From the NCBI RefSeq assembly GCF_001693255.1, contig NZ_CP016474.1, positions 2,684,661-2,748,660 of the forward strand: DNA of 64,000 bases. Reading direction: 5' to 3'. Source of the DNA: Picosynechococcus sp. PCC 7003. GTDB lineage: Bacteria > Cyanobacteriota > Cyanobacteriia > Cyanobacteriales > MRBY01. The position numbers and the translations under genes were made by a program. The notes beneath the pieces are model-generated. The model saw nothing but the letters and a program-made list of their open reading frames with translations, did not search any database and was not told the DNA's origin. Shown in pieces: positions 45,410-58,068 of this stretch (position 1 is the first letter of the stretch; the number at the start of each line of letters is the position of its first letter).

Positions 45410-46066
<657 letters not shown>

Positions 46067-46360
46067 TTAGTAGAGATCTTCTTCTTTGTGGGTCTCGATC
46101 ACACAGTTAGATGTGGGGTAAGCGATGCAGGTGAGGACGTAACCCGCGGCCACCTGTTCGGGGCTGAGGAAATTTTGATCACTCTGGTCAACGGTGCCAG
46201 AAATGAGTTTCCCGGCACAACTGGAACAAGCCCCAGCACGGCAGGAATAGGGAATATCGATGCCTTGGTTTTCAGCTTCGTCGAGGATATACATATCATC
46301 GGGAACGCTGATGGTATATTCGCCTTCGGGGGTCTTCAGAGTAACTTCGTAACTTGCCAT
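46067..46360 (-). CDS. Second plant-type [2Fe-2S] ferredoxin
   Basis: A 97-aa ferredoxin from ATG 46360, with all four ligand Cys in the same positions as petF ([12 protein letters not shown] and VLTCIAY). It shares about 64 of 97 residues with the downstream ferredoxin by hand count. It differs in the N-terminal strand ([20 protein letters not shown]) and in the loop [11 protein letters not shown], where petF has the acidic [11 protein letters not shown]; this surface contacts partner enzymes. It is probably an alternative ferredoxin with a different partner or expression. An in-frame ATG at 46381 is less likely. Confidence 0.93.
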
Positions 46361-46484
46361 TGCGGTAATGTAATTTTGCAACTAGGGTTTTCATTTTCCA
46401 TTAAACCCGGTTGGGGGCCTTGGGAAAATACCTGATGTTCCATCGGGATTCTGGGCAGTATAGTTTGAGGTTGAAAATTAAACG

Positions 46485-49354: not shown

Positions 49355-49386
49355 TTGACCTTCTAGCCGAGGGGAGAGTCTATGAT
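49355..49386 (+). promoter_or_regulatory. Promoter with 20-bp spacer upstream of the copper cluster
   Basis: A near-consensus -35 TTGACC (49355-49360) and -10 TATGAT (49381-49386) are separated by 20 bp. The spacer starts TTCTAG and ends GGAGAGTC, giving a weak dyad with the end of the -35 box. A 19-20 bp spacer with a dyad is the hallmark of promoters activated by MerR-family regulators such as CueR. It lies 30 bp before the DUF411 gene. No MerR gene is in the window. Confidence 0.5.
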
Positions 49387-49415
49387 GAAAGCAGATTGTA
49401 TTTGCGGTGTCAGTA

Positions 49416-49949: not shown

Positions 49950-51389
49950 ATGGCCATAAAGCGGCGGCAATTTCTCGGTTTAACGGCCTTGGGAGCAACG
50001 GGAGCCTTACTTTGGCAGGGGCGCAATTTTCTGACGGGAAAAACCTCTAGCCCTTTGGCGGCAACAGCATCGGAGATTTATCGCAGTGAGGGGGGTTCCC
50101 TAGAAATTAACCTAGAGGCCCGTTACGAAAACGTCTTGCTGGGAGGAGAACTGGCCCGCAACATGATGACCTATAACGGTCAAATCCCTGGCCCCCGCAT
50201 GGAAGTCAGACCGGGCGATCACCTGACGATTCACTTTAAAAATAGCCTCGATCAACCGACAAATCTGCACTTCCACGGACTGCACCTTTCCCCAGAAGGC
50301 AACCAAGATAATGTGTTCCTCCACATCGCACCAGGGGAAACTTTTCACTACGAACTGGAGATTCACCCCCAACAGCGGGCAGGAACTTACTGGTATCACC
50401 CCCACCACCATGGTTTTGTTGCCGAGCAATTATTTCAGGGGTTGGCTGGGCTAATCGTTGTGCGGGGAGACTTGGATGAGCTGCCAGAGATCCGCGCTGC
50501 CCAAGAGGAATTTTTTGTTCTCCAGGATTTTAACCGCGATCGCCAATCTCAAGGGATGATGGGCTCACCGATGAATTTGATGGCCGGTCGAGAAGGGGAT
50601 CTGATTACGGTCAATAGTCTATTCCACCCAGAAATTGCTGTCACCAAAGACCTGGTGCGCTTACGGTTGCTGAATGCGTCCCCCTCGCGGTTCTATCGTC
50701 TGCAACTCTATGGCCAAAAACTTATCCAAATTGCCGGAGATGGTGGTGCTTTTTCTCAACCCATGGAGCGGGACGAATTACTTTTAACCCCAGGTCAACG
50801 GGCGGAGGTGCTCATCAAAACCCAGGATCTACCGAAAACGCCGATCCATTTACTCAACCTTCCTTATCAACGCGCCCAAATGGGGATGATGGGCCAGCAA
50901 TACAACAATGCAACCGTGGCGATCGCCGATTTTACCCCCAGCGCTCAAACCTTCGCCCCGGTGCAAATTCCTGCCCAATTAATTCCCGTTGAACCTTTAC
51001 CGGAGCCGAGCCGAACCCGTCGTTTTACCCTGAACCATGGCATGGTACCAGGACAAGGAATGGCTTTTTTGATCAATGGGGAAGCCTACCGGGATCAACC
51101 CCAAACCACCGTCCGCTTGAACGATGTGGAGGATTGGGAAATTGTGAATACGGGCACAATGGATCACCCCTTCCATGTCCATGTGAATGGGTTCCAGGTG
51201 GTAAGTCGTAACGGGGTGCCGGAAGAAAATATCGCCTGGGCGGATACGGTACTGGTGCGGGTCGGGGAAACGGTCAAAATTAGAATGGCTTTCCGGGATT
51301 TCAGCGGCAAAACGGTTTACCACTGCCATATTCTCGATCATGAAGACCTTGGCATGATGGGCCAATTGGAAATTCTACCCGCTTCATAA
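49950..51389 (+). CDS. Multicopper oxidase with Tat signal (CueO/SufI/laccase-like)
   Basis: A 479-aa protein. A twin-arginine signal (KRRQFLGLTALGATGALLW) directs folded export. The four copper-ligand segments are present in order: LHFHGLHLSPEG, WYHPHHHGFVAEQLFQGLAG, MDHPFHVHVNGF and VYHCHILDHEDLGMMG, with Met as axial type-1 ligand. It probably oxidises Cu(I) to Cu(II) or phenolic or iron substrates in the periplasm. ATG 49950 has AGGAG at 49936-49940. It is the second gene of the cluster; a gap of about 95 bp precedes pacS, with no clear terminator. Confidence 0.92.
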   Translation: MAIKRRQFLGLTALGATGALLWQGRNFLTGKTSSPLAATASEIYRSEGGSLEINLEARYENVLLGGELARNMMTYNGQIPGPRMEVRPGDHLTIHFKNSLDQPTNLHFHGLHLSPEGNQDNVFLHIAPGETFHYELEIHPQQRAGTYWYHPHHHGFVAEQLFQGLAGLIVVRGDLDELPEIRAAQEEFFVLQDFNRDRQSQGMMGSPMNLMAGREGDLITVNSLFHPEIAVTKDLVRLRLLNASPSRFYRLQLYGQKLIQIAGDGGAFSQPMERDELLLTPGQRAEVLIKTQDLPKTPIHLLNLPYQRAQMGMMGQQYNNATVAIADFTPSAQTFAPVQIPAQLIPVEPLPEPSRTRRFTLNHGMVPGQGMAFLINGEAYRDQPQTTVRLNDVEDWEIVNTGTMDHPFHVHVNGFQVVSRNGVPEENIAWADTVLVRVGETVKIRMAFRDFSGKTVYHCHILDHEDLGMMGQLEILPAS

Positions 51390-51485
51390 CCTACTTCATA
51401 AAATGTGAAATTTTGGCCTTGACTCTCCAGCGTACTAGAGCTTTTACCCTGAGATTAGTTATTGGATCATCGAGGAAACGCCCCC

Positions 51486-53717
51486 ATGGAAACCCGCCAG
51501 TTCCAGATCAAAGGGATGGGCTGCGCTGCCTGTGCCACTACCATCGAAACCGCCCTTCAGAAAACCGCAGGGGTACAAACGGCCCAAGTGAATTTTGCCG
51601 CCGAGCAGTTAAGGGTCGAATTTGACGGCACCCAGGTTAACGGAGAAACCCTCCAACAGGTAGTCAGCGATGCGGGCTATGAAGCGATTCCCCTCATGAA
51701 AGGCGATCGCCAAAGTCAGTTAGACCAACAGGAACGGGAACAGGCGCGGCAACTGCGCAAATTAGCCCACAAGGTCTGGTTAGCGGGAATCTTAAGTACG
51801 GTATTGGTGGTGGGCAGTTTACCAATGATGCTGGGGACGGACATTCCGGGGATCGCCCATTGGTGGCATAGCCCCTGGTTGCAGTGGGCTTTGACGACGC
51901 CAATCATGGTCTGGCCGGGCCAGGGCTTTTTTACGGGGGCCTGGAAAAGTCTCAAAAATCGCACCGCCGACATGAATACCTTGGTGGCCCTGGGGACGGG
52001 GGTGGCCTATGGCTATTCGGTGCTGGCAACGGTGTTTGCAACGCAGTTCCAAGCTTGGGGTTTGACTGGGGATGTGTATTTTGAAAGTGCGGCGGTGATT
52101 ATTACGCTGATCCTCCTGGGGCGCTTTTTAGAGCGGCGGGCGAGGGGGAAAACGGCGGCGGCAATTCGCGAACTCATGGGCCTACAGGTAAAAACAGCGC
52201 GGGTGCTGTGGGGCGAAGGAACCTTTGATATTCCTGTAGAAGAAGTGCAGGTTGGCGATCGCCTTTTAATCCGACCGGGGGAAAAAATTCCGGTGGATGG
52301 CGAAATTTTAGAAGGAGATTCCACCCTCGATGAAGCTTTGGTGACGGGGGAATCGCTGCCCGTGGAAAAAACCGTTGGCGATCGCGTCATTGGTTCCACC
52401 TTAAATAAAACGGGTCGCTTGATCCTGAAAGCCACCCATGTGGGGGAAGACACGGTCTTGGCGCAAATTATTCGCCTCGTCCAGGAGGCCCAGGGAAGCA
52501 AAGCACCGATCCAAAAGTTGGCGGATCAGGTCACGGCTTGGTTTGTGCCCGCAGTGCTGATGATTGCCTTGATTACTTTTAGTATTTGGGCGATCGCCGG
52601 TAATCTTTCTTTAGCGATCACGACTTTAGTGAGTGTGTTGATTATTGCTTGTCCCTGCGCCCTGGGGTTAGCAACGCCTACCTCGATTATGGTCGGCACG
52701 GGGGTTGGTGCCCAGCATGGAATTTTGATCAAAGATGCCCAGAGCCTCGAACTTGCGGCCCATCTCAGTACCATTGTTCTCGATAAAACGGGCACCCTCA
52801 CCCAGGGGAAACCCAGCGTCACCAACTGCCACAGCCTCATTGACGAAGCGCAACTGTGGTCTTGGGTTGCCAGCGTGGAACAGTCTTCGGAACATCCTTT
52901 GGGGGAAGCGATCTTTCAGCACGCCCAGGCGAAAAATGTGCCCCTCGTGCCCCTAGAAAATTTCCAATCTCAAACGGGGCAAGGGGTACAGGCCACGATT
53001 AATCAACAATCGATCTACATTGGCACCGCCCAATGGTTACGGGATCTGGGCATTGATTCTGAGCCGCTCCAATCCCAAGCAACAGCCTGGCAAAACGAAG
53101 GGAAAACGGTGATTTGGGTCGCCATTGATCAGCAACTCGCAGGTATTATTGCCTTGGCTGACCAGCTTAAACCCACCAGTGCCAGTGTGGTGAAACAGTT
53201 GCAAAAACTGGGTCTGAAGGTTGTTCTGCTCACCGGAGATAATCCCCGCACCGCCGAGGCGATCGCCAAACAGGTAGGTATTGATCAGGTACAGGCGGAA
53301 GTACGTCCCGACCAAAAGGCCGCTGTGGTGCAACAATTCCAAAGTCAGCGGGAAATCGTCGCCATGGTGGGGGATGGCATTAACGACGCTCCAGCCCTGG
53401 CCCAGGCGGATTTAGGCATTGCCATTGGGACGGGAACCGATGTGGCGATCGCCGCCAGTGATCTCACCCTCATTTCTGGGGATTTAGAAGGGATTTTAAC
53501 GGCGATCAAACTGAGCCGCGCCACCCTCCGCAATATCAAACAAAATCTCTTTTTCGCCTTCTTCTACAATGTCGCCAGTATTCCCATTGCTGCGGGGATT
53601 CTTAGTGCTTGGGGAATTTTCCTGAACCCGATGATCGCTGGGGCGGCCATGGCCTTTAGTTCTGTTTCGGTGGTGACGAATGCTCTACGTTTGAAAAAAG
53701 TTAGTCAACGGCTTTAA
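51486..53717 (+). CDS. pacS: Copper-transporting P1B-type ATPase, PacS-like
   Basis: A 743-aa P-type ATPase. It has one N-terminal heavy-metal domain ([15 protein letters not shown], Cys13 and Cys16), the membrane copper motif [13 protein letters not shown], phosphorylation site [11 protein letters not shown], the HP motif SSEHPLGEA and hinge [18 protein letters not shown]. The N-terminal GMGCAACA and most of the core follow Synechococcus PacS, the thylakoid Cu(I) pump that supplies plastocyanin, more closely than CtaA. ATG 51486 begins the conserved domain. Function as a detoxifying exporter is the alternative. It closes the copper cluster; a palindrome follows the stop. Confidence 0.93.
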
Positions 53718-53808: not shown

Positions 53809-54069
53809 TTATTGGTAAATTTCTCGGCGATGTCCAATTTTAATGATCAGAATAATGAGCTTTTCGTTTTCAATTCTATAGATAATGCGGTAATTTCCTA
53901 CTCTAATCCGAAAGCGACCATTACCATTTTTAAGTTTTTTGGTATCTGGTGGATACGGATTATTGATCAGGGCTTCAATTTTTTCAATGATGCGCTTCTG
54001 AGTACCTTTGGGCAATTTAGAGAGTTCTTTTTGAGCAGTCTTCAAGAACTCAATGCTATAGCCAGCCAT
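53809..54069 (-). CDS. RelE/ParE-family toxin
   Basis: An 86-aa basic protein with the RelE fold pattern: SIEFLKTAQKELSKLPKGTQ, then the ribonuclease-type strand FRIRVGNYRIIYRIENEKL and the C-terminal IIKIGHRREIY. It probably cleaves ribosome-bound mRNA. It is five bases downstream of its antitoxin gene, as normal for RelBE modules. The base composition is AT-richer than that of the copper genes beside it, in line with lateral transfer. ParE-like gyrase poisoning is a less likely alternative. Confidence 0.87.
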   Translation of the reverse strand: MAGYSIEFLKTAQKELSKLPKGTQKRIIEKIEALINNPYPPDTKKLKNGNGRFRIRVGNYRIIYRIENEKLIILIIKIGHRREIYQ

Positions 54070-54074
54070 AATTC

Positions 54075-54538
<464 letters not shown>

Positions 54539-54561: not shown

Positions 54562-57306
54562 TTATTTTGGTGGGTTATCGATCGCCCAGGGGCCAACTAT
54601 ATTTTCGCCATTTTTTTCTTTTTCGGCCAGGGCGAGGTTCAACTCTAAAAGTTTTTCGAGGATGTCATCGTCTTTTTTGAAGCCATAGGCTTTGAGAACA
54701 AGGGCATCAAGCTGTTTGTGGAGTTTATGGAGTTGGCTGGCGGGTTCATCGAAAAAGGCGTTGTAAAGTTTGGTAATCCCCCATTGTTTGGCTTCCATTT
54801 GGGCGCTGCGATATTCGTGGAGGTTGATCATCGCTTGGCGGATCTGTTGGGTGAGTTTTGCACTCGCCATCTGGGGAAAGGGAAAAGTTTCAAAACAAGT
54901 GTTGTGGGTGTAACGGGTATCACCTTTTAGGGTTGAGCTTTGGGCTTTGACCCATTGGCGATGAACATCTGATGTCAAAATTCCCAACACATAAAAATCA
55001 TCCGAAGCCACAACAGTTGTTGAGTCAGCAGGAAGCCAATCTAATTTACAAGGAATAAAAATAAACCATTTAGAATGTCTTGGAACTGCAAAGTAAAGAG
55101 CTAGTAGCTCGATTGCTTGACGCATTGCAGGGCGTTTTTCTCCAAATTGCCACCAATTTTCTCGCGTTGTTTGTCGTCGATTTGTATCGCGCACGGGTTT
55201 TACAAATTCCTTGAGATGATTGAACGGTAATTTGTAATTACTAGCATCTTCTAAAGATAAATCATTAAAATCAATAATCCAGCGGCTTGGTTCACCGTTC
55301 ACTTTGTCTGTCAAATCTCCTGCTGAAACTGACCACTTTAAAACTTGTCTATTGACTGAATTTTGTTTAATCCAAGCTTTTGCGATTTCTGGCTTAATAT
55401 AAAAATCTTTCCCGACAGGAATTACACCTTGAAAAGCAAAATCCTTATTTTGTTCAATTCTAAAGGCTTGACTGACATCAAAAAGCTCTGTCAAAGAGCT
55501 ATTGATACTTTTGACTTCTCGATTATCCAAAAGATAATGTTTTGGTGCTTGCTTTGCCCAATTCACTAAGCTGACATGAACATTTGCTTCCCCTGACCAG
55601 GGTTGTGTTGAAACTGCTTCGTGAATAAACCCGCCATTTTGCACAATATATTCCAAAGAGGCTGTGCGGCTTTTCCCTTGGCTAATGGAATTTGTGCCAA
55701 CTAAACCAGCCCGACCGTTTCCATCCAGTTGATCGTGGGCTTTCCGAAACCAATAACTACAAAAATCCACTGAATCTTTGACATCAGCAAATTTTTTAAA
55801 AACCCGCTCCATATATTCATCACCCAGAGCTAATCGGGCGTGTTTACCACCAAGAAAAGGCGGATTGCCGATGATCGCGTCAGCCTTCGGCCAGTCATTA
55901 AATAGCGCATCCTTGCAGACAATATTTTGATCCAAAGAATCCAACGGCAAAGCAGGCTCATTCAACCCAAACTTATCAATCGCAATCTTCCGGGCGATCA
56001 TCATCGTCACCCGCGCCAACTGCACCGCAAACGGATTTGTATCCATCCCAAAAAACTGCAATGGCGTCACAATCCCCAGTTCTTCCTGCTGTAAAGCGTC
56101 CCCCTGGAACCGCTTCCGCCGCTCATAGATTTTATTCAGCAAAACCCGTTCAAGCCGCTTCAACTCCTGATAGGCCACATAAAGGAAATTTCCCGAACCG
56201 CACGCCGGATCCAACACCCGATATTCCCGTAATTCCTGCTTCAGTTTTTCGAGATCTTCGTAGGTCGTCGCTTGGTCGATTTTTCCTTCCCAATAGTCGG
56301 CGATCGTCGGTCGCACAATCTGCCGAATATCTTTCTCAGAGGTGTAATGAATCCCCCTGGCATGGCGCTCATCCGCATCAATGGCACTCTCAAAAATATT
56401 CCCAAAAATCGAGGGCCGGATATTCGCCCAATCATCCCGCGCACAAACATCCAGAATTTCTAACTCGCTCTTTTCCAAGGGAATTGGCTGAATCTCACCA
56501 AACAAGCCCCCATTAAAATAGTCCACCCCCTGATAGCGACCCTGGGGCACGATCCCCGGCTGATCCATCGCCCGAAACAACCCACTAAACGCATCATAGG
56601 CATTGTCCCGCCCCGCTAAACAGTCCTGCACCAACCCCACAAACAGATCCCGTGGCAGAAGGTTCCGGTCTTCAGCGAACATCGCTAGGACACATTGCAG
56701 GGTAAACCGTTGCAGTTGCGTTTCCGTGAAATAAACAAATTTTTCCTTTTCGCCTCGCGATCGCACCAGCCGATAAAATTCCCCCATGCGTTTAGCTGTG
56801 CGTTCCGTTACCTCGACCTGATTGTTGCGAAAGACGGGTTCCCGACCGCCAATCTCCATAAATGAGAACGTCCCCGCCCGATGGGGGAGATCCTCTAACT
56901 TCACCCGGTCTACAGGCTCATCGACTTGGTTGTTAAAGTCATAGACCCAAAACTCATCAAAATTGCAGAGGATCGAATAGCGTGGTTTCGGGGTCAGCCG
57001 CAGCCAATATTTTTCAAGCTGGGAATAATGCAGCGCCAGATCCGTGCCCCGCTTTTTCATCTCCACCACGATCCCCTTTACCCCAGGGGCGGGCGACCAA
57101 ACCAAATCTGCAAAACCCGTTTTATCCTTCTTGCTCGCTTTTTTGACCCGCTCCTCAAACTCAGCCCCAACTTCCTTGATCCCCACATGGCCAAACGCTT
57201 GAAAAAATCGCGTTAAAAATGTCTGCGCCTCTGACTTCTCATCCCCTTGGATATACGCCTTGCAGTAATCCACAAATGCCTGGAGAGAATCACGGGTTAC
57301 TGCCAT
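54562..57306 (-). CDS. MmeI-like type IIL restriction endonuclease-methyltransferase
   Basis: A 914-aa protein, close to the 919 aa of MmeI. The N-terminal nuclease core is GFADLVWSPAPG..GIVVEMKKRG (D-ExK). The helical linker ends at the methylase: motif I DPACGSGNFLYVAYQEL and motif IV NPPFLGGKHAR. The target-recognition part (about residues 580-800, gene region 54900-55560) is AT-rich, and the C-terminal region (NLHEYRSAQMEAKQWGITKL, then LDALVLKAYGFKKDDDILEK) matches the family. One protein methylates adenine on one strand and cuts at a distance. The frame is intact. It is bracketed by toxin-antitoxin genes on both sides. Confidence 0.92.
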   Translation of the reverse strand: MAVTRDSLQAFVDYCKAYIQGDEKSEAQTFLTRFFQAFGHVGIKEVGAEFEERVKKASKKDKTGFADLVWSPAPGVKGIVVEMKKRGTDLALHYSQLEKYWLRLTPKPRYSILCNFDEFWVYDFNNQVDEPVDRVKLEDLPHRAGTFSFMEIGGREPVFRNNQVEVTERTAKRMGEFYRLVRSRGEKEKFVYFTETQLQRFTLQCVLAMFAEDRNLLPRDLFVGLVQDCLAGRDNAYDAFSGLFRAMDQPGIVPQGRYQGVDYFNGGLFGEIQPIPLEKSELEILDVCARDDWANIRPSIFGNIFESAIDADERHARGIHYTSEKDIRQIVRPTIADYWEGKIDQATTYEDLEKLKQELREYRVLDPACGSGNFLYVAYQELKRLERVLLNKIYERRKRFQGDALQQEELGIVTPLQFFGMDTNPFAVQLARVTMMIARKIAIDKFGLNEPALPLDSLDQNIVCKDALFNDWPKADAIIGNPPFLGGKHARLALGDEYMERVFKKFADVKDSVDFCSYWFRKAHDQLDGNGRAGLVGTNSISQGKSRTASLEYIVQNGGFIHEAVSTQPWSGEANVHVSLVNWAKQAPKHYLLDNREVKSINSSLTELFDVSQAFRIEQNKDFAFQGVIPVGKDFYIKPEIAKAWIKQNSVNRQVLKWSVSAGDLTDKVNGEPSRWIIDFNDLSLEDASNYKLPFNHLKEFVKPVRDTNRRQTTRENWWQFGEKRPAMRQAIELLALYFAVPRHSKWFIFIPCKLDWLPADSTTVVASDDFYVLGILTSDVHRQWVKAQSSTLKGDTRYTHNTCFETFPFPQMASAKLTQQIRQAMINLHEYRSAQMEAKQWGITKLYNAFFDEPASQLHKLHKQLDALVLKAYGFKKDDDILEKLLELNLALAEKEKNGENIVGPWAIDNPPK

Positions 57307-57454: not shown

Positions 57455-57661
57455 ATGAAAAAAACACTGTACATCCCGGATGAGCTGTGGCAGCAGCTTG
57501 ATCAATACCTCCAAACTCACCCCGAAGAAAATGCCTCTAGCCTCGTCCAGAGCGCCCTCAGAGATAAGCTACGTCCCCGGAACGGCCAGGGTTTACTAGA
57601 TTTAGCAGGCCTAGTTCGTAATGCCCCTGTAGATGCTTCAACGAATCCCTTGGAGCGTTGA
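57455..57661 (+). CDS. Ribbon-helix-helix antitoxin of a VapBC-type module
   Basis: A 68-aa protein. The N-terminal KKTLYIPDELWQQLDQYL is a ribbon-helix-helix DNA-binding unit (beta strand then helix), followed by ASSLVQSALRDKL. The C-terminal part (GLLDLAGLVRNAPVDAST) is the disordered tail that would block the PIN active site. Its stop overlaps the ATG of the PIN gene by one base (TGATG). An operator-like inverted repeat lies upstream. Confidence 0.85.
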   Translation: MKKTLYIPDELWQQLDQYLQTHPEENASSLVQSALRDKLRPRNGQGLLDLAGLVRNAPVDASTNPLER

Positions 57662-58068
57662 TGGAACGACTGGTAATCGATGCAGGCCCACTAATTGCTC
57701 TCGTTTCTCACCAGGATCGATATCATGAGCTAGCTCAAGCCGGCTTTACCCAAATCCCAAAAGTTTTTGGGGAAATCATTACCCCTTTACCGATTGTTTT
57801 TGAGGTTTACAAATTCGTTTCACGCCGTGAGTCAATCCAAGCGGCTCAATTCCTTTTGACAACTTTGCAGGCCAATACAGTCATTCAGACTATTTCTCCA
57901 ACGGATTTTCAAGAGATTTACGAACTCAGCCTTCGTTCACCCCAATGGCGAGGCAGTTTAGAAGATGCTTCTGTGCTGGTCTTAGCAAAACAAATGCAAG
58001 CGAGGGTTTGGACAATTGATTACAGAGATCTCGGCTTTTTTGAAGATATTGGTTTTTGGCATCCCTGA
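57661..58068 (+). CDS. PIN-domain toxin (VapC-like)
   Basis: A 135-aa PIN-domain protein. The acidic catalytic residues are in LVIDAGPLIALV (Asp), IVFEVYKF (Glu), GSLEDASVLVLA (Asp) and WTIDYRDLGFF (Asp). It would cleave RNA, such as tRNA or rRNA, when released from its antitoxin. ATG 57661 is preferred to TTG 57658 because it overlaps the antitoxin stop. It is transcribed away from the MmeI-like gene and ends 92 bp before the convergent NDH-2 gene. Confidence 0.87.
   Translation: MERLVIDAGPLIALVSHQDRYHELAQAGFTQIPKVFGEIITPLPIVFEVYKFVSRRESIQAAQFLLTTLQANTVIQTISPTDFQEIYELSLRSPQWRGSLEDASVLVLAKQMQARVWTIDYRDLGFFEDIGFWHP

Follow-up and report, generated by a model that had tools for sequence, protein, structure and literature searches.

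A probable two-promoter copper-efflux regulon under a single metal-type MerR protein in Picosynechococcus sp. PCC 7003

When cyanobacterial copper control is described in the available parts of the literature, two systems are named, CopRS and PetRP (PMC4182526, PMC10141476). In Synechocystis, CopRS controls copper resistance but, according to the accessible portions of the same two papers, not pacS, ctaA or atx1, and the sections at hand of a 2023 comparative survey report no homologues of one-component copper systems in its representative Cyanobacteriota (PMC10141476). Among cyanobacterial MerR proteins of the type considered here, the only one found to have been studied experimentally is Slr0701, which, in the excerpts available, responds to Hg and drives merA (PMC6741143) and showed no binding to the DNA upstream of sll1920, which is pacS in Synechocystis (PMC6741143); the slr0701 mutant is described there as growing like the wild type on the other metals tested, including copper, with the data not shown (PMC6741143; PMC4284471). 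As to the DNA sites, those of the MerR and HMRTR subfamilies are, in the part of the source available, 22 bp long and centred 8 bp from the -35 box, with spacers of 19-20 bp (PMC5045206). In the open-access literature, neither a copper MerR regulon of cyanobacteria nor start-site or copper-response data for the genus Picosynechococcus were found. Within the literature covered, the MerR-type promoter is a known kind, and its use in a cyanobacterial copper regulon, along with the altered cysteine pattern of the regulator (see below), appears to be new.

Here we compare with these systems a copper cluster of Picosynechococcus sp. PCC 7003 (genome of 3.345 Mb in 3 contigs), located in a stretch of 64,000 nucleotides that is hereafter called the window. 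The features concerned are the following:

49355..49386, plus strand: predicted MerR-type promoter 1, with -35 box TTGACC at 49355-49360, spacer of 20 bp at 49361-49380 and -10 box TATGAT at 49381-49386 (from the sequence, the genus alignment and the matrix)
49358..49379, plus strand: predicted MerR-family operator of promoter 1, 22 bp, ACCTTCTAGCC/GAGGGGAGAGT, placed relative to the -35 box as in 116 distinct order-wide sites and by the rule given in the available part of PMC5045206
49416..49937, plus strand (alternative start GTG at 49407): DUF411 gene (PF04214, 3.3e-25), the first gene behind promoter 1
49950..51389, plus strand: multicopper oxidase (MCO) gene, with matches to three Cu-oxidase families, 12 bp after the DUF411 gene
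51418..51450, plus strand: predicted MerR-type promoter 2, consisting of a C, -35 box TTGACT at 51419-51424, a 20-bp spacer and -10 box TACCCT at 51445-51450, with a predicted operator at 51422-51443 (best matrix score in the window)
51486..53717, plus strand: copper P-type ATPase gene pacS (PacS/CopA type; PF00403, PF00122), behind promoter 2

The preliminary description of this DNA took the genes behind the promoter to be copper-related, and the matches to Pfam, NCBIfam and solved structures bear this out for the DUF411 gene, the oxidase gene and the copper P-type ATPase gene. Specifically, the DUF411 protein, known elsewhere as CopG, has as its only solved relative 6wis/6wje (5.9e-42), named 'DUF411 domain-containing protein', and is 91% identical to that of Picosynechococcus sp. 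PCC 7117, the nearest named relative found. The oxidase has an N-terminus that looks twin-arginine-like by eye, and its top NCBIfam model is CueO, with a score under the cut-off of that model. The pacS product reaches 659.8 bits with TIGR01511 (cut-off 397), and its best solved relative is 3rfu, 'Copper efflux ATPase' (2.6e-181). As in a CueR-like regulon, predicted operators precede the genes for the copper ATPase and the multicopper oxidase, pacS directly and the oxidase behind DUF411, and both classes of gene also occur as the first gene behind the motif elsewhere in the order.

Around the cluster, the window also holds, just downstream of pacS, a gene for a ParE-type toxin (PF05016) next to a small gene that has no Pfam match and may encode an antitoxin (53809-54311, minus strand), followed by an MmeI-like type IIG restriction-modification enzyme of 914 aa (54562-57306, minus strand) and by a small protein with a weak DUF2811 match and a PIN-domain protein, perhaps a VapBC-type pair (57455-58068, plus strand). 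On the other side lie a protein with GLTT pentapeptide-like repeats (PF01744; 48148-48549, minus strand), which adjoins a DUF92 gene, and two similar small adjacent ORFs (45410-45703 and 46067-46381, both on the minus strand) that resemble [2Fe-2S] ferredoxins by eye.

The boxes TTGACC and TATGAT, placed at 49355-49386 with a 20-bp gap by the preliminary description, can be read directly in the sequence, and this is the only place in the window where the exact boxes occur with 0 mismatches. The further use of the boxes and their spacing as evidence in themselves did not hold, as they are at chance level genome-wide: the pattern TTGACN-N19/20-TATNAT has 14 matches in the whole genome, and its reversed control has 13. 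When as many as 3 mismatches are allowed, the exact boxes match 66 times in the window, versus 49.5 expected (sd 7.45; 66 was reached in 0 of 100 shuffles). A scan for ordinary sigma-70 promoters with 16-18 bp spacers found none on the plus strand between 48500 and 50500. The predicted operator is a 22-bp dyad with its centre 8 bp from the -35 box, its right half being close to the consensus and its left half degenerate; counted by eye, the dyad symmetry is weak in operators 1 and 2 (5/11 and 6/11, respectively) and amounts to 9/11 in the G001 orthologue of operator 1 (L095).

Promoter 1 stands above chance owing to its conservation in the genus, with diverged flanks, and to the finding of copper genes across the order by the pattern derived from it. 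The DUF411 gene is present in all six genus genomes, and the alignment shows that the promoter block upstream of it is kept in each of them while the flanks diverge. All aligned sites have TTGAC[CT]NNTC[CT]A, then eight unconstrained bases, then GAGAGT[CT]TA and the T that closes the -10 box. This pattern occurs exactly once per genome in the six genomes, always upstream of DUF411, with 0 control matches, which shows uniqueness and not significance, since the pattern was derived from these same sites. The multicopper oxidase gene follows DUF411 in five of the six genomes, the exception being G005, whose 11-kb stretch at DUF411 yielded none. The contig search for relatives covered the best 80 of 147 relatives, of which the one cyanobacterium (PCC 7117, L010) was used and the other bacteria were left out.

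A looser pattern drawn from the genus alignment, TTGACNNTCN10GAGAGTNTA, was searched in 388 genomes of the order and found at 121 sites in 87 of them, the reversed control giving 2 matches in all. Comparison of all 121 listed sites (116 distinct 48-mers) reveals order at positions that the pattern leaves free: T occupies position 5 in 88% of the distinct sites, C occupies position 6 in 87%, and in 90% the base just ahead of TTGAC is a C. In 113 of the 116, a spacer of exactly 20 bp leads to a -10 box with its final T, a base that lies outside the pattern. The order-wide column consensus, TTGACTCTCCAGTTAACTGGAGAGTTTA, forms a dyad of 22 bp whose midpoint lies 8 bp from the -35 box; at three of its five free dyad pairs, bases pair within individual sites beyond what the column make-up gives, the other two showing no excess. 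The first downstream gene, taken as the longest ORF with 55 aa or more whose start lies no more than 450 bp downstream (a rule by which a short first gene may be skipped), could be named at 114 of the 121 sites. It codes for a MerR in 32 cases, for DUF411 in 25 (6 of them in the genus itself), for HMA proteins in 20 (17 with ATPase-domain matches), for DUF305 in 9, for a multicopper oxidase in 5, for glutaredoxin in 2 and for phytochelatin synthase and a CusB-like protein in 1 each. MerR, DUF411, HMA/copper ATPase, oxidase and DUF305 genes thus add up to 91 of the 114, and all named classes to 95; among the other 19 are short proteins that match no Pfam family, one CbiD (L160) and a few likely chance matches. 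Three strict-motif sites (G124:C54, G038 and G032) were discarded as probably due to chance; they show no convincing dyad.

Some individual sites can be described here. In G266:C738 (the CbiD case, L160), the motif lies about 280 bp before the ORF for this cobalamin-synthesis protein. A phytochelatin synthase ORF in G164:C285 (L149) has the same operator some 330 bp ahead of it, this copy coming after a MerR gene that has its own site. In G248 (L225-L231), the motif occurs seven times, spread over three contigs, and the genes that follow it are those for copper ATPase, DUF411 and MerR.

A 33-position matrix, for which 31 sites preceding MerR genes of other genera served as the training set, gave its best scores on both strands of the window at 51418 (28.9) and 49354 (23.6), the third being 12.2, and the maximum in 200 first-order random windows was 9.6. 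The genus-alignment pattern fixes 15 of the 33 matrix positions, which makes the score of promoter 1 circular in part. When just the other 18, free positions are counted, promoter 1 has a score of -5.4, a value reached by 1.3% of random 33-mers, whereas its genus orthologues range from -0.3 to 18.1 and promoter 2 scores 11.9 (about 1 in 100,000 random 33-mers). The case for promoter 1 is therefore built on its conservation and on what the pattern finds elsewhere. The matrix was also applied starting from DUF411, of which 106 genomes had a match: among the best 30 DUF411 loci, 6 of them from the genus, the scores are bimodal, with 17 loci (including those 6) scoring at least 23.7 and 13 without a site, and the maximum in 600 shuffles was 12.0. 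For the best 24 loci outside the genus, this means 11 with a site scoring at least 28.8 and 13 without; 7 of the 11 sites, judged by eye, do not fit the search pattern. Operator 1 has the lowest matrix score among the positive DUF411-upstream sites and is the weakest of that set. The idea of a MerR-type promoter, put forward in the preliminary description, draws support from the 20-bp spacing, the 22-bp dyad, the conservation, the order-wide link to copper genes and the presence of a single metal-type MerR (see below), and promoter 1 is, on these grounds, a supported candidate for a conserved MerR-type operator-promoter.

Promoter 2, which the preliminary description did not contain, was found by the matrix trained on other genera and does not fit the search pattern; as a predicted site, it is a find independent of the pattern from the genus alignment. 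Its sequence, CTTGACTCTCCAGCGTACTAGAGCTTTTACCCT (51418-51450), ends 35 bp 5' of the pacS ATG. Promoter 1 had been placed ahead of the whole DUF411-MCO-PacS cluster; this stands for DUF411 and the oxidase but not for pacS, which has a MerR-type promoter of its own, and promoter 1 would therefore serve DUF411-MCO first. In PCC 7117 and G004, where pacS lies inside the cluster, promoter 2 is kept, and in G001, G003 and G005, where pacS lies elsewhere in the genome, a 20-bp-spaced site is found 31-37 bp before the ATG (counted from the end of the 28-mer). In all six genus genomes, such a promoter thus precedes DUF411 as well as pacS, with a spacing of 20 bp at each of the 12 sites. G004 has an extra site, on contig C3, next to the second of its MerR genes. 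No further sites were found in the window's own genome at 3 mismatches from the consensus; promoter 1 itself has 5 mismatches and is missed by this search, so that weaker sites could exist. The GAGCTT variant seen in promoter 2 is rare, as it occurs in only 4 of the 388 genomes (three of the genus and G162); in G162, it again precedes an ORF resembling, by eye, a copper ATPase.

Which protein could read these promoters? The preliminary description called for a genome search for a CueR-like MerR, and one metal-type MerR is indeed found, with PF00376, in the window's genome (G000:C1:130826-131239, minus strand, 138 aa); its likeness to CueR is another matter, as discussed below. The laxer PF13411 (MerR_1) brings two more proteins over its cut-off, a 227-aa protein (C3:80556-80717) on the 253-kb contig C3 and the thymidylate synthase ThyX (L004, G000:C1:1278505-1281606). 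The latter, which is split by an intein with an HNH domain, was rejected as a further MerR, the match falling inside the intein. The candidate MerR is not linked to the copper cluster and has an orthologue, at least 68% identical, in each of the five other genus genomes. No MerR-type site was found at its own locus, where the best matrix score is -10.6; many relatives have one. Identity with the candidate is 37-57% for motif-linked MerRs from other genera, and 63-64% for two cut-off fragments among them. MerR relatives at E <= 1e-15 occur in 84 of the 87 motif genomes versus 190 of the 301 others (Fisher p 2e-11, shared ancestry being ignored), with none at this limit in the motif genomes G032, G232 and G258. 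In 36 motif genomes, the only MerR within this limit, below which weaker MerRs may exist, is not beside the motif, and for 29 of these 36 proteins (24 of them from other genera) the match to the window's MerR reaches E <= 1.1e-37. This suggests that unlinked MerRs read the motif as well. In a tree of 73 rows, the window's MerR groups with MerRs that do not adjoin the motif, the motif-linked ones falling into other branches; since this tree has few columns and open forks, and its rows were picked for being near the motif or similar to the window's MerR, it only groups. The published slr0701 primers match G289 (the forward one exactly, the reverse one with 1 mismatch) and do not match L195; since the ORF between them in G289 is not a MerR, Slr0701 is not placed in the tree.

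The metal-binding residues were compared by aligning 71 distinct full-length MerR ORFs (from 79 in the fetched loci) with CueR and ZntR of E. coli. All 71 have Cys at CueR position 77 (ZntR 79), where CueR has Ser77; Cys at this position is usual in sensors of divalent metals. In the column of CueR Cys112, none has Cys and 64 have Trp, whereas Cys is found in all 71 in the column of CueR 120; elsewhere in the metal loop, Cys occurs in 4 of the 71, and the window's MerR has none there. Among the NCBIfam models, the best for the window's MerR is the Hg-MerR model TIGR02051 (76.2 bits, cut-off 150.85), the CueR model TIGR02044 gives 65.1 bits (cut-off 147.4), and no equivalog cut-off is passed. 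CueR was accordingly rejected as an identification: Cys112 is missing, Cys replaces Ser77 and the TIGR02044 cut-off is not reached. The best solved relative is 4ua1, labelled 'Regulatory protein', which we take to be the Bacillus mercury sensor Hg-MerR. Compared with 4ua1, a motif-linked relative retains the helix cysteine and the last loop cysteine, and the first loop cysteine is gone, so that two of the three metal cysteines of an Hg-MerR (one in the helix, two in the loop) are present. By its cysteine pattern and its scores under the equivalog cut-offs, the window's MerR is thus not a member of CueR, MerR, ZntR or CadR as NCBIfam defines these families; it would work like CueR yet stand outside all four. 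We infer a two-cysteine metal site across the MerR dimer.

Taken together, these data make it quite probable that pacS and the DUF411-MCO pair form a two-promoter copper-efflux regulon controlled by the genome's single metal-type MerR, with copper as the signal. Promoter geometry, predicted operator, conservation, the second site, gene content and the single metal-type MerR are what sequence analysis provides. We infer that this MerR would be the reader and copper the inducer, and that the DNA would be twisted, the latter by analogy with the MerR family. The choice of copper comes from the genes; in Synechocystis, Slr0701 is linked to Hg and does not bind at pacS, and CopRS does not control pacS. 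In the proposed mechanism, a MerR dimer would occupy the 22-bp operator between the boxes 20 bp apart and would bind copper of the cytosol (probably as Cu(I); other thiophilic ions may be bound as well), whereupon the metal-bound protein would twist the over-long spacer so that RNA polymerase could use both boxes. Promoter 1 would drive DUF411-MCO and promoter 2 pacS; the DUF411 protein and the CueO-like oxidase would handle periplasmic copper, and PacS would pump copper from the cytosol.

The main rival to copper control leaves promoters and MerR in place and changes the signal, the protein being a broad thiophilic or a mercury sensor. We regard this as unlikely, with an appreciable chance of being right: Slr0701, comparable here by description, activates its own gene and merA on Hg in the available part of PMC6741143, the nearest NCBIfam model and the nearest solved relative of the window's MerR are those named above, and every one of the 71 aligned MerRs has the cysteine at CueR position 77. 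However, the motif-linked genes across the order are largely of copper type, no mercuric reductase family occurs among 25 of the 37 Pfam families behind the motif, and both sites in the window's own genome precede copper genes. It seems improbable, to a markedly greater degree, that the promoters are read by another protein, be it the MerR-like protein on contig C3 or a distant MerR missed by the models. Such a reader would fit the unlinked position of the candidate gene, with no motif upstream, and the presence of a second MerR_1 protein; the C3 protein, however, has a single cysteine, far from the helix-turn-helix by eye, and is not matched by PF00376, whereas the candidate has its orthologue in all six genus genomes and the identity given above to the motif-linked MerRs elsewhere.

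Control lying mainly with another copper system, the long spacer being incidental, is very improbable. The accessible parts of PMC4284471 and PMC10141476 describe copper resistance in Synechocystis as governed by CopRS, and a metal ATPase of Oscillatoria as governed by BxmR, so that a CopRS two-component system or a repressor of the BxmR/SmtB or CsoR type might be envisaged; against this, both boxes, the 20-bp distance and the operator are kept at two genes in six genomes, the motif is order-wide, and pacS of Synechocystis is not under CopRS according to the portion available of PMC4182526. That two sigma-70-like boxes came to be oddly spaced by mere chance can hardly be credited. The hexamer pair is, as noted, at chance level genome-wide, and promoter 1 reaches only the 1.3% level at its pattern-free positions, but the conservation in six genomes, with pattern-free scores of the orthologues up to 18.1, and the order-wide link to copper genes speak against chance.

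With copper control by MerR as the preferred reading, the sites provide a concrete candidate regulator, a predicted operator and a target set, so that the question of pacS control becomes testable. Should the metal be copper, this MerR, which has neither hallmark of CueR, would show that the scaffold can hold a copper site of a second design. A broader and decidedly more tentative thought, which we would entertain with some doubt, is that there may exist in Cyanobacteria a one-component copper sensor of their own, distributed over the order; this branch of MerR proteins, closest to Hg-MerR and with the first loop cysteine lost, might bind Cu(I) between the helix cysteine of one subunit and the last loop cysteine of the other, bridging the dimer, and might drive pacS, DUF411, multicopper oxidase and DUF305 genes; this would then be the missing pacS regulator.

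Among the known systems, the Hg-sensing MerR (4ua1) is the best solved relative and has the helix cysteine and the last loop cysteine in common with the cyanobacterial group; in contrast to it, the first loop cysteine is missing in this group, and the targets here are not mer genes. The Cyanobacteria branch of the HMRTR subfamily has the same site geometry, with a C-K nucleotide/residue pair noted for Cyanobacteria; the portion available of that source does not name the cyanobacterial target genes or the metal (PMC5045206). Slr0701-merA of Synechocystis PCC 6803 is alike in combining a cyanobacterial MerR, a conserved inverted repeat before the targets and an unlinked regulator, and differs, in a comparison by description and not by sequence, in that mercury and merA take the place of copper genes and the DNA upstream of pacS is not bound, as far as the available part of the report goes (PMC6741143). 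The CueR/HmrR regulon of Proteobacteria (copA, cueO) likewise has its operator in an over-long promoter and its Cu(I) ATPase and multicopper oxidase at separate promoters. There, however, the spacer is 19 bp and the operator arms are ACCTTCC/GGAAGGT, according to the accessible part of PMC1526738, versus 20 bp and the 22-bp ACTCTCCAG/CTGGAGAGT here; and, unlike CueR/HmrR, the regulator described here has no Cys112, carries Cys at position 77 and is associated with a gene set that includes DUF411.
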